From: Gracilimonas sp.
GTDB taxonomy: Bacteria > Bacteroidota > Rhodothermia > Balneolales > Balneolaceae
Assembly: GCF_040218225.1 (NCBI RefSeq)
Contig: NZ_JAVJQO010000004.1
Location: 496,001 to 560,000, forward strand
DNA length: 64,000 bases
Reading direction: 5' to 3'
The translations under genes and the position numbers were made by a program. The notes below the pieces were generated by a model. That model was not told the origin of the DNA. It saw nothing but the letters and a program-made list of their open reading frames with translations, and made no database searches. Positions 93 to 3,270 of the stretch are shown one piece after another (position 1 is the stretch's first letter; each line of letters starts with the position of its first letter).

Positions 93-2762
93 ATGAAGGT
101 TAAAACCATATTATTGTTGTTTGCGGCTTTTTATTTAACAGCTGCGGGCGCAAAAGCTCAAGAGAGTTTTGTCTTAAATGAACCGACTTCCTTACATCAA
201 AAAGTAACGGCTGATCAAGAAAAGTTTTTCTTTTCATTAAATGAAGATGTGCTGGAAAACCCTGATTTCACAAAAGGAGCACGTTTTATATTCGAGACAA
301 GTAATGGGGCACGGGAGTTTATTATAAACAGGAAAACAGAATACTTTCCCGGTTATACTTCTGTAATTGCATCGAGAGAGGGGCAGAAAGAGAATTTATT
401 TTCCTTTACTTATTATAATGGGAGGTTGAGCGGTATTTATCATGAATCTCATAACCAAACGATGTTGTTGGGTTATGATGAGAAGACCAAGCTCAACTAT
501 CTGTCAGCTTCAAAAGACGCTGAAACGGTGGGGCTGGTTTGTGGCGTTCACAATGGAGATCGATCTTTGTTAACCCCACCCAGAAAGTTTGCTGCTTCAA
601 AATTAAGCCGCCAAAAAGCCACCAAAAAAGCCGGAAAATCTCTTTTATATGGCTCTGAAGACGATAGTGTTACCATAGATATAATGTTGGTGTATACAGA
701 TGCTGCTGAAACCTGGGCTTTAACTTCTCCCCAAGGTGATATAAACGGTGTGATGGCACAAGCTCTCAATCTTTCACAAACAGCCCTGAACAATAGCAAC
801 GCAAAAATCAACCTGAGGTTGGTACATACTTATAAAACCAGTTATGACGAAGAAAATGATGGTGTAGATTCTAATGATCGATTAAGGCGGTTTACTCAAA
901 ACCCTGATAACCCCCAGTTTGAAGCTGAATATGATGGTTATATGGAAGAGATTCATGACCTAAGAGATCAACACGGTGCGGATATTGTTTCTCTGATAGT
1001 TAGAATAAGCGATACGGGAGGCTTGGGCTGGAGGCTGGGGAGCTCCGGCGGTGAAGAAGCGTATGCATTTAATTTGAACCGTGTACAGCAGGTGGCCGGC
1101 GGATATACATTAATTCATGAAATAGGGCATAATATGGGAAATGCTCACTCGCGCACGCAAGATGAATCAGCAGCAAAGGATGCAGGAGGGTTATATCATT
1201 ACTCTGTTGGTTATCAGGATTCTACAAATGACTTCTATACCATTATGGCCTACAACAATACTAAAGGAGGACAGGTCCTGAATAGTGCACCTGTTTTTTC
1301 AAGCCCGGGTTTAACCTTTCAGGGTCATTCGGCGGGAACAAATAATTTTCAAACACCAGAAGACAATGCGCGGAGTATGAAGGAAATAAAATGGAGCATC
1401 GCATCGTATCGCCCGTCAGTAGTTGATGCCCCTGTTGCCTCTGTATCTGCGAATGAAATAGAAGTAGAAATGAACCGTGAAGATGAATTTACGGCGAGTT
1501 TTGATATTTCTAATTCCGGGAATAGTGGATTGATGTGGAGTGCAGACTTTGACTTTATTTCTAAAACAGTAGAAAAACCGGTTCAAGAGCAAAAGGAAGG
1601 AGTAAAGCCCATTTTACTCAAGAATCCAATACAAAGCCCGGCAAACTTTTCGGGGACCATGAACCGCCAGAAAGCACATTTGGCTGAGTCTGTTTTATAT
1701 AACACATCTTTTGAGAGTAATGAAGGCTTTTCAAACGGCTCATATTCAGGACGGTCTGAATGGCGGGCGCTTTCAGATACGGAGTTCATGATTTCTGGTG
1801 TAGCACCAAACACTGGAAGCCAGCACCTTAGATTGGCGTACGATGGAAGCGGAAGCACTCAATTTATAGCCTCGCCATTTTTTGGGTATCAGCTTTTTGG
1901 TGAATACGAAGTAACTATCAATTTTTTGATATCGGACATCAACGAGACATACGATTTTTATATTTTTGACGGGAAAACGGGGGGGTATTCCGCGGGTGTA
2001 ATAATAGACTCAGGTTCAATTTTTACGTTCGACATTGGCGAACAGGGAAATCTTATTTTTCCTTATTCCGGTCAAGACATAACTGCCAACTCTTATCAGG
2101 AATTAAGGATTGTGTATAATACAGCCAATGAAACCATAGATTACTATTACAATGGCGGACTTATTGCACAAAATGATTATCTGAATGGTTTTACTCCCGG
2201 GGTAATTCAGGTTTTACATAGAAACCAGGTCTCTGGAGCGTACATGGATGTGGACGATATTGAAGTTAAACAGCTGGATGCGCCTTATGAATGGCTTTCA
2301 GTTCCGTCTATGAGCGGGGTTGTATTTGAAGGAACATCCGGGCAGGTTGAATTGACATTTAATACCGAGGGAATTTCAACCGGCACGTATGAAACTCTTC
2401 TAAAGATAACTACAAACGACCCAAACAACCCTGAATATCAAATACCGATAACGTTAACGGTAAACGATGTTGTTTCTAATGAAACTGAGCAGATCCCACA
2501 TAAAATTACGCTGAATCAGAATTATCCCAATCCATTTAATCCCTCAACCACTATCAGGTTTAATCTGTCAGAAGCTCAGGAGGTGAGGCTGGAAGTATTT
2601 AACATGCAGGGCCAGAAAGTCGCTACACTTTTAAATCAGAAAAAAAATCAGGGCGAACATAAAGTTTTATTCGATGCGAGCAGTTTATCAAGTGGGATTT
2701 ATGTGTACCGGCTAATAACGGCCTCACAGATGCTAACCCGCAAAATGGTTTTAATAAAATAA
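93..2762 (+). CDS. Secreted reprolysin-like zinc metalloprotease with T9SS sorting domain
   Basis: An 889-residue secreted endopeptidase. A signal peptide ending near AKAQ is followed by a propeptide-like region (about 24-190), then a metzincin catalytic domain (about 195-440) carrying HEIGHNMGNAH, with zinc ligands H342, H346 and H352, general base E343 and a Met-turn at M385 (IMAY). Ig-like and adhesion-type beta regions follow (about 445-800). The C-terminus carries the NYPNPFNPST type-A sorting domain (about 808-889), so export by the type IX system and anchoring or release at the cell surface are expected. It probably degrades extracellular protein; the substrate is unknown. The next gene starts one base after the stop and resembles this protein's propeptide, so the two are probably cotranscribed. 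Family and motifs are seen directly; the M12B assignment is by motif. Confidence 0.9.
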   Translation: MKVKTILLLFAAFYLTAAGAKAQESFVLNEPTSLHQKVTADQEKFFFSLNEDVLENPDFTKGARFIFETSNGAREFIINRKTEYFPGYTSVIASREGQKENLFSFTYYNGRLSGIYHESHNQTMLLGYDEKTKLNYLSASKDAETVGLVCGVHNGDRSLLTPPRKFAASKLSRQKATKKAGKSLLYGSEDDSVTIDIMLVYTDAAETWALTSPQGDINGVMAQALNLSQTALNNSNAKINLRLVHTYKTSYDEENDGVDSNDRLRRFTQNPDNPQFEAEYDGYMEEIHDLRDQHGADIVSLIVRISDTGGLGWRLGSSGGEEAYAFNLNRVQQVAGGYTLIHEIGHNMGNAHSRTQDESAAKDAGGLYHYSVGYQDSTNDFYTIMAYNNTKGGQVLNSAPVFSSPGLTFQGHSAGTNNFQTPEDNARSMKEIKWSIASYRPSVVDAPVASVSANEIEVEMNREDEFTASFDISNSGNSGLMWSADFDFISKTVEKPVQEQKEGVKPILLKNPIQSPANFSGTMNRQKAHLAESVLYNTSFESNEGFSNGSYSGRSEWRALSDTEFMISGVAPNTGSQHLRLAYDGSGSTQFIASPFFGYQLFGEYEVTINFLISDINETYDFYIFDGKTGGYSAGVIIDSGSIFTFDIGEQGNLIFPYSGQDITANSYQELRIVYNTANETIDYYYNGGLIAQNDYLNGFTPGVIQVLHRNQVSGAYMDVDDIEVKQLDAPYEWLSVPSMSGVVFEGTSGQVELTFNTEGISTGTYETLLKITTNDPNNPEYQIPITLTVNDVVSNETEQIPHKITLNQNYPNPFNPSTTIRFNLSEAQEVRLEVFNMQGQKVATLLNQKKNQGEHKVLFDASSLSSGIYVYRLITASQMLTRKMVLIK

Positions 2763-2763
2763 G

Positions 2764-3270
2764 ATGAAGAAAATTTATCAGACCCTTATGGTTTTGATAG
2801 CAGGTGTAATGCTGCTTTCATGTGGAAAGAAAGAACGGGAAGAAGCAACGCCAGCTCCGGCAGAGTCGCAGATATCTCAAGAGGCTCATAAAGATTCTAC
2901 TTCAGCCGAAAAGTATTACTTCGGCATAGACAGGGATTTTTTAGGTTCTTTGAAACAGGGAGATACTTTCGAGATTGCAACGCGAAATCAGGAAATGATC
3001 TATAAACTAAATGTCCGCAGAGTACAGGAAGCCATTCCGGGAATAACGTCCATTTCTGCAAATGTAGAAGACACAAATACGGGACTTGCCACACTTTTAT
3101 TCAGGGACGGAAAGTTAACCGGGGTATTGGATATATATAAAGGTGGTATAAAATATAGGGTTCAATACGATTCTTCAGAAAGCACACATTTTCTACAGGA
3201 GATACTTCCTGAAGAAATGGATGCTCTTGAAGGAGGGACACCATTGTCTCCCCGGAAAGGGATGAAATAA
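2764..3270 (+). CDS. Lipoprotein resembling the upstream protease propeptide
   Basis: A 168-residue protein with a lipoprotein signal (lipobox LLSC, Cys about 20) and a short Glu/Ala-rich linker. The remainder aligns by eye with the propeptide of the metalloprotease immediately upstream. Both contain an EK-[YF]-[YF]-F start, a [DE]-D-x-L segment, a central PG-[IY]-TS block, an F-x-[DN]-G-[KR]-L-[TS]-G block and a closing L-[ST]-P-x-[RK]-K segment. There is no catalytic motif. The gene begins one base after the protease stop, so one transcript is expected. Being lipid-anchored, it may act as a periplasmic inhibitor or folding helper of the protease before export. That role is inferred from the similarity and linkage only. 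Confidence 0.8.
   Translation: MKKIYQTLMVLIAGVMLLSCGKKEREEATPAPAESQISQEAHKDSTSAEKYYFGIDRDFLGSLKQGDTFEIATRNQEMIYKLNVRRVQEAIPGITSISANVEDTNTGLATLLFRDGKLTGVLDIYKGGIKYRVQYDSSESTHFLQEILPEEMDALEGGTPLSPRKGMK

Follow-up and report, generated by a model that had tools for sequence, protein, structure and literature searches.

Homology between the prodomain of a secreted metzincin of Gracilimonas and the lipoprotein encoded next to it

Results

A secreted protease and a lipoprotein are encoded in tandem in Gracilimonas. We analyzed a 64,000-nucleotide stretch of DNA (the window; positions 496,001 to 560,000 of the forward strand of contig NZ_JAVJQO010000004.1, NCBI RefSeq assembly GCF_040218225.1) from the 3.54 Mb genome of Gracilimonas sp., and focused on a metalloprotease gene (93..2762, + strand, stop codon included; 889 amino acids) and a lipoprotein gene (2764..3270, + strand; 168 amino acids, no Pfam family). 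A single base separates the stop codon of the protease gene from the start of the lipoprotein gene. An earlier annotation of the sequence by a model (the original prediction) had proposed that the lipoprotein resembles the propeptide of its neighbor and might keep the protease inactive in the periplasm until export; its coordinates for the two genes were exact on rechecking.

The protease is a metzincin with a prodomain of its own. It consists of a signal peptide (93..158, predicted by inspection, with an approximate cleavage site), an N-terminal domain that has no name in Pfam (the cis prodomain, residues ~40-155; 210..557), a reprolysin-type metzincin domain (663..1448), a linker region, and, at the C-terminal end, a sorting tail for type IX secretion (2523..2750). 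The catalytic domain was recognized by Reprolysin_5 (E = 3.5e-14, 53.9 bits, cut-off 27), by the Mep72 model, and by its fold, and contains the zinc-binding motif HEIGHNMGNAH (HExxHxxGxxH; 1116..1148), whose three histidines do not vary among the nine aligned rows of the genus. Together, this motif and the reprolysin-type domain identify an M12B/reprolysin-type metzincin. The match to the Mep72 model (E = 1.8e-33, 115.9 bits) was restricted to residues 194-452 and was far below the NCBIfam cut-off of 645 bits, ruling out that the protease is a Mep72 equivalog.

The protease is predicted to be cargo of a type IX secretion system, as the original prediction had expected. Its C-terminal sorting domain matched PF18962 (Por_Secre_tail; E = 2.1e-14, 54 bits, cut-off 27) and TIGR04183 (E = 5e-15), and the same genome has one match to SprA_N (317 bits), the sole translocon part that we searched for. 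The sorting-tail family to which 2523-2750 belongs has 59 matches genome-wide.

The lipoprotein begins with a predicted lipoprotein signal peptide and a lipobox ending at Cys20 (MLLSC; 2764..2823, by inspection), a residue that is invariant in the nine-row alignment from the genus, consistent with its earlier description as a lipoprotein. A linker leads from the lipid anchor to a prodomain-like beta domain (residues ~45-148; 2896..3207), which was delimited by hhalign, by the AlphaFold2 (AF2) model, and by fold matches. The domain is followed by a C-terminal tail, DALEGGTPLSP (3220..3252), that sits where prodomains bear the switch cysteine and in which D153, L155, G157, and P160 are invariant in all nine lipoproteins of the genus.

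The lipoprotein is homologous to the prodomain of the metzincin encoded one base upstream. BLASTP with the signal peptides included found 27% identity over 118 amino acids (E = 7e-9), a value to which the signal peptide contributes. We compared two nine-row alignments from the genus, one of the lipoproteins and one of N-terminal protease regions (in which one row, L031, is a different paralogue), with hhalign and obtained 98.4% (E = 4.9e-15). After the signal peptides and the linker were trimmed, the match was 97.9% (E = 5.1e-13, score 78.4), and it was 97.1% (E = 5.8e-11) when the L031 row was removed as well. Of 100 column-shuffled controls, 99 were scored, with a maximum of 16.6. A match caused by the signal peptide is therefore ruled out, and the propeptide resemblance first seen by eye is borne out by a significant profile-profile match. 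A search of the same genome with the protease as query also recovered the lipoprotein (E = 1.1e-4). Identity across the aligned domain is 18%. No convincing sequence relative of the lipoprotein was found in Pfam, NCBIfam, or the PDB, and a single lipoprotein query found no relative in the search of named genomes.

The extent of the homology differs from that read by eye. The resemblance had been placed at protease residues up to about 195; the profile alignment stops at about residue 142, and the larger alignment reaches the cysteine at position 150. The block given as F-x-[DN]-G-[KR]-L-[TS]-G is present, except that its first position is Y in the protease (YYNGRLSG). The final block, L-[ST]-P-x-[RK]-K, did not hold up: the lipoprotein tail DALEGGTPL aligns over GLVCGVH of the protease, and TPPRK lies past that segment.

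Anchored copies of the domain lack the switch cysteine. The cysteine switch of pappalysin-type proteases has been described as a conserved cysteine-glycine motif (PMC6949598; for this and the other papers cited here, we refer to the excerpts available). We aligned 46 cis prodomains, excluding near copies and fragments, and found a cysteine at the switch in 44 (43 in one column, L095 one place off), with glycine directly after it in 29 of the 43. In the protease of the window, Cys150 (LVCGV; 540..542) is invariant in 9 of 9 genus rows and is likely the switch residue, an assignment that rests on conservation because the zymogen model is weak around Cys150. The lipoproteins are different. Among the 34 free-standing copies of the domain found in the survey described below, 32 have a lipobox by inspection (31 with A, G, or S preceding the cysteine, and G009 with C). 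In the 28 lipoproteins that were aligned, the switch column has no cysteine (G in 23, E in 3, a gap in 2); the four omitted, G001, G005, G009, and the second copy in G078, are close relatives of included rows. The lipobox cysteine is the last cysteine in all 32 lipoproteins of the order. The possibility that the lipoprotein is itself a cysteine-switch prodomain is thus rejected.

Free-standing copies without a lipobox carry the switch cysteine. This was true of 3 of 3 (L073, L080, and L167). At L073:1500-3426 (- strand) and L080:1948-6034 (+ strand), the cysteine-bearing, lipobox-less prodomain gene lies directly upstream of a catalytic gene that has its own signal peptide and no prodomain. 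The third, L167:4467-5072, is from another family of the phylum and ends near a contig end, leaving any partner out of view. So far, then, the pattern is that anchored copies are without the cysteine and unanchored copies have it. A possible counter-example is a 190-amino-acid frame of the secreted type beside L032, with a weak domain match (E = 7e-5), no cysteine, and no anchor. We left it out of the count of three; an in-frame stop parts it from the catalytic frame, and the gene is perhaps broken.

Several other arrangements of the domain were seen. The locus L032:7284-9865 (G000:C4, outside the window) is a second metzincin of the same genome, in which the in-frame stop splits the prodomain frame from the catalytic frame; either a broken gene or a further split arrangement could account for this. 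A 235-amino-acid frame with a lipobox-like start precedes the L032 frame and matches none of our three profiles. The two cis prodomains of the 46 that have no switch cysteine, those of Thiobaca trueperi (L106:7413-9407) and of a Lutibacter metagenome-assembled genome (L105:3992-7177), are fused to their proteases and end like the lipoproteins.

Linkage of the lipoprotein to a protease is widespread in the order. We surveyed 128 genomes of the order for domain matches at E up to 1e-4, counting a match as free-standing if it was in an open frame of at most 240 amino acids, and as beside a protease if it was within 400 bp of a catalytic metzincin open reading frame on the same strand. Domain matches of any kind were present in 65 genomes. 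The 34 free-standing matches were spread over three families, and 29 of them adjoined a catalytic metzincin gene on the same strand, in agreement with the tight linkage seen in the window and at odds with a lipoprotein that is never linked to a protease. The gap was -8 to 28 bp in 24 of the 29 pairs and 72-133 bp in three, and the two large overlaps (G005 and G060) are an artefact of choosing the longest possible frame. In 27 of the 29 pairs the protease bears its own prodomain. The protease gene is usually upstream; this order is reversed in G037, G045, G055, G060, G063, and G066, and in G072 the free-standing gene is flanked by two proteases. The copy in G837 adjoins the C-terminus of a protease that is cut by the contig end and is 36% identical to the window protease over 304 columns, and no protease was seen near that in G813, which is about 400 bases away from the end of its contig.

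Within the genus, the lipoprotein was found in 9 of 10 genomes, and in 8 of these 9, that of the window included, the protease is immediately upstream. By these searches G006 has neither gene. Genome G007 also encodes a 1217-amino-acid metzincin paralogue with a cysteine prodomain (L031:4298-7951, - strand), without a matching lipoprotein alongside.

In three genomes, representing at least two lineages, the lipoprotein has been kept without a working protease. In G009 (L023:7420-9113, - strand), the protease has decayed to two fragments and has no catalytic domain, and the adjacent lipoprotein gene is intact. In G069 (L069:6440-7057, - strand) and G073 (L071:7940-8545, + strand), there is no protease between the lipoprotein gene and its flanking gene, and none was found genome-wide. 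Both orphans directly adjoin a gene of 376-377 amino acids that flanks the pair in the genus and that we take, from reading the sequence, to be chorismate-mutase/tyrA-like; the next gene is presumably uvrB-like. The two orphans differ by dN 0.42 and dS 2.28 (near saturation), a ratio of 0.18.

These intact genes are what would be expected if the lipoprotein were an envelope immunity factor directed against proteases of kin or competitors and not against the protease of the cell itself. The ratio of 0.18 indicates that the reading frame has been constrained, though a protease may still have been present for part of that time. We consider this explanation very improbable. The lipoprotein is tied to one protease in most genomes, G069 and G073 are sisters in our trees and may represent a single loss, the G073 assembly is 71% complete (that of G069 is 94% complete), and the losses can be recent.

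The pair is old and co-inherited. In a 74-row tree, from which the switch columns were removed and three long rows left out, the lipoprotein of the window belongs to a ten-member lipoprotein clade that spans three genera (support 98/94; 100/96 in a 64-row tree), and the cis prodomain of its neighbor to an 18-member prodomain clade (100/97; 99/98 in the 64-row tree). Distances among lipoproteins and among prodomains were correlated over 24 pairs (Mantel r 0.76, with 0 of 5000 permutations as high; for G037 and G072, which have two proteases each, the nearer was used). This correlation reflects common inheritance and by itself is no proof of contact. We ruled out a recent duplication within this genome: the mean identity of lipoproteins to their own prodomain was 0.163, versus 0.153 to those of others, the rank of the own prodomain ranged from 0 to 22 of 24, and the two proteins were in separate, well-supported clades in both trees.

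The two trees differ on whether all the lipoproteins have a single origin. The 64-row tree separates 22 lipoproteins, two separate prodomains, and two cysteine-less cis prodomains from 38 cis prodomains (95/88). The 74-row tree did not recover this split, and the lipoprotein label requires five changes on it; a single clade of all lipoproteins was not rejected in that analysis by the approximately unbiased test (p-AU 0.13).

The lipoprotein is under purifying selection. The ratio of nonsynonymous to synonymous substitution rates (dN/dS) was 0.13-0.26 in the seven lipoprotein pairs, of 11 compared, that had a computable dS, several dS values being greater than 2. These values are difficult to reconcile with a decayed, functionless duplicate of the prodomain, or a chance likeness, as is the occurrence of the lipoprotein throughout three families of the order and in nearly all genomes of the genus. 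Such a remnant, for which the 18% identity of the two domains was the sole favorable observation, we find barely credible.

Models of the two proteins resemble the halves of one complex. The AF2 model of the lipoprotein was made from a 22-row mixed alignment of lipoproteins and prodomains and is not independent of the homology. It has a mean predicted local distance difference test score (pLDDT) of 90.2 and comprises a single short helix plus eight strands, whose order matches that of the prodomain part of the zymogen model (mean pLDDT 75). The six best Foldseek matches of the lipoprotein model were chains of 117-130 residues in PDB entry 6o38, a "chaperone-substrate complex" (probability 1.00, E = 1.3e-2 to 3.7e-2, TM about 0.57); these are weak by E-value, and 0 of 681 matches had an E up to 0.001. 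With VIA-align the best match was 6o38 chain M (Z 10.9, root-mean-square deviation (rmsd) 5.0 over 107 residues), followed by chains of ADAM17, either zymogen or prodomain (Z 8.1-8.4), and then by unrelated entries at 7.2 and lower, with profragilysin at 5.3. A best Z of 7-8 is common without a clear match, and the ADAM17 values are barely above this background. The zymogen model best matched the large chain of the same entry, chain A, across its catalytic part (Z 21.0, rmsd 2.8 over 200 residues), and then the ADAM17 zymogen (Z 19.4), profragilysin (Z 19.2), and snake venom reprolysins (about 15). Entry 6O38 is named as CpaA, with a cited CpaA-CpaB cocrystal, in PMC7542363, and we take its small chains to be CpaB. 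With the zymogen model matching the large chain of 6o38 and the lipoprotein model its small chains, the pair may be the counterpart of a single complex of known structure. The likeness seen is one of fold: a 24-row lipoprotein profile, searched against all PDB chains, returned none from 6o38 at E up to 10.

The match to 6o38 raises the possibility of a membrane-bound secretion chaperone. As such, the lipoprotein would assist folding of the protease, or stabilize it in the periplasm, before passing it to the type IX machinery, and any blocking of the active site would be incidental. Both fold matches, that of the lipoprotein and that of the catalytic part, are to the same chaperone-substrate entry. 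We nevertheless think a chaperone rather unlikely. The protease already has a prodomain, commonly a folding aid, whereas the available description of CpaA (PMC7542363) mentions none; CpaB works in a type II and not a type IX system; the profile search found no sequence match to 6o38 at that threshold; only 24 of 63 related catalytic hits are paired with a free-standing copy; and the lipoprotein persists in three genomes that have no working protease, where a chaperone would have no client.

Discussion

On balance, we read the lipoprotein as a cysteine-less prodomain that is tethered to the membrane and that would bind its protease and restrain it in the envelope. Our data show the homology, the linkage, the missing cysteine, and the age of the pair; the binding, the inhibition, and the place of action are what we infer. 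The lipoprotein and the cis prodomain share one ancestral domain, and the lipoprotein lacks the switch cysteine and has a predicted lipid anchor. Most likely it would dock on the catalytic domain of its partner in the manner of the cis prodomain, with the conserved tail, D-x-L-x-G-x-x-P, threading the active-site cleft. With no thiol on the zinc, this binding would be releasable. The cis prodomain, with its cysteine switch, would hold the protease latent on its way out, and the lipoprotein would be a second lock, catching protease that sheds its prodomain too early in the periplasm or that meets the producer's own envelope. Because the protease already carries an intact prodomain of the cysteine type, the lipoprotein cannot be the sole lock.

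Taken together with the homology found here, reports on CpaB, BamI, and potempins make it likeliest that the lipoprotein binds where the prodomain does and places its tail in the cleft. The CpaB of Acinetobacter resembles the lipoprotein in that its gene is directly downstream of a metzincin gene, that it is a membrane-anchored periplasmic domain, and that the chains taken to be CpaB are the best fold match. CpaB is described as required for the secretion of CpaA (PMC4713064), and its tail as entering the catalytic site in a zymogen-like manner (PMC7542363), which is what we propose for the lipoprotein tail. The two differ in their anchors and secretion systems (transmembrane and type II for CpaB, lipid and, as predicted, type IX here).

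Mep72 and BamI of Pseudomonas aeruginosa are likewise a related metzincin and a partner in one operon. BamI binds Mep72 and removes its toxicity in Escherichia coli (PMC4334185). Unlike the lipoprotein, BamI is encoded upstream and is predicted to be partly unfolded, and no prodomain features in the description of Mep72, which lists a signal sequence, a metzincin domain, and carbohydrate-binding domains (PMC4334185). We found no true Mep72 locus over the cut-off, with 0 of 369 genomes in one such survey. The potempins of Tannerella forsythia are, like the protein studied here, small lipoproteins encoded adjacent to proteases secreted by a type IX system (the KLIKK proteases), with inhibition of the co-expressed protease stated as data to be published (PMC7296668). 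They differ in being encoded directly upstream, and the available text states no relation to the protease prodomain. None of the 50 fold matches listed was titled as a potempin, which does not exclude potempins.

Prodomains of the ADAM type (ADAM17 zymogen, 9o54, 8snl) have the same fold (Z 8.1-8.4 with the lipoprotein, 17.5-19.4 with the zymogen model) and, like the cis prodomains here, a switch cysteine, which in most of the latter is followed by glycine. The lipoprotein differs in being a separate, lipid-anchored polypeptide without the cysteine. Free-standing propeptide-like inhibitors, such as the I9 proteins and the cathepsin propeptide-like proteins, exist in other peptidase families; in these, too, a relative of a prodomain works in trans, and they belong to other peptidase clans.

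Listeria Mtz offers another precedent. It is a secreted metzincin whose adjacent downstream lipoprotein, Tim, is reported to be cleaved and released (PMC8235301). If the lipoprotein here were such a substrate, the protease would cut it from its tether and the freed domain would act elsewhere. The linker that parts the anchor from the domain would suit this, and mirolysin is reported to cleave a lipoprotein encoded upstream of it, the C-terminal segment of which stayed in the cleft (PMC6949598). However, Tim is likened by fold prediction to TIMP, and not to a prodomain (PMC8235301), whereas the prodomain likeness here points to binding at the prodomain site, and we regard release as quite improbable.

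Several observations weigh against a tethered lock. The intact prodomain of the protease would be a competitor for its binding site. Neither the switch cysteine nor a proven zinc ligand is present in the lipoprotein, and the zymogen model has a mean pLDDT of 58 and 49 in two blocks around Cys150. CpaB, presumably the closest relative by structure, is described as a chaperone on which secretion depends (PMC4713064). Among 92 genomes of the family, 39 of 63 catalytic hits have no free-standing neighbor (counted by eye, with G072 counted once). The partner is thus dispensable for many related proteases and, because only 24 of the 63 have a copy alongside, optional in the wider family.

We prefer restraint over a pure chaperone role because the protease has its own prodomain, many of its relatives do without the lipoprotein, and the lipoprotein persists on its own in three genomes. 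The last argument is weakened because G069 and G073 are sisters, perhaps sharing one loss, G073 is incomplete, and the losses are perhaps recent. The loci L073 and L080, where a separate cysteine-bearing protein is encoded beside a prodomain-less catalytic gene, indicate that the domain can replace the prodomain, as do the fused prodomains of Thiobaca and Lutibacter that have no switch cysteine. By analogy with CpaB, the lipoprotein may combine both roles, restraint and chaperone.

A metzincin with an adjacent, envelope-anchored partner is a kind of pair already known from potempins, BamI, and CpaB. New here are the origin of the partner, which is related by descent to the protease prodomain, and the finding that each anchored copy is without the switch cysteine. 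Neither this absence nor the age of the pairing was part of the original prediction. Neither a prodomain-derived lipoprotein partner nor the missing cysteine of anchored copies was reported in the literature that we searched (titles and the beginnings of abstracts), whose coverage leaves out most of the subscription literature, including the CpaA-CpaB structure and the main work on potempins.

A broader and more doubtful proposal, which we offer tentatively, is that the pair represents a third mode of zymogen control for metzincins, in which an intact cis cysteine-switch prodomain is joined by a lipid-tethered paralogue without the zinc ligand as a releasable membrane lock, that CpaB and perhaps BamI are prodomains moved to a separate protein, and that lineages without the protease retain the lock as immunity against related proteases.

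Bacteria that export destructive metalloproteases must shield their own envelope, and several unrelated-looking partners are known, including potempins, BamI, CpaB, and TIMP-like proteins. Here the origin of such a partner is visible, as a membrane-tied, cysteine-less paralogue of the prodomain of the protease. Other arrangements of the domain survive as well, as separate prodomains with the cysteine and as fused prodomains without it, and these outline an evolutionary route between a propeptide in cis and an inhibitor or chaperone in trans. They also suggest that CpaB should be re-examined as a prodomain in trans.

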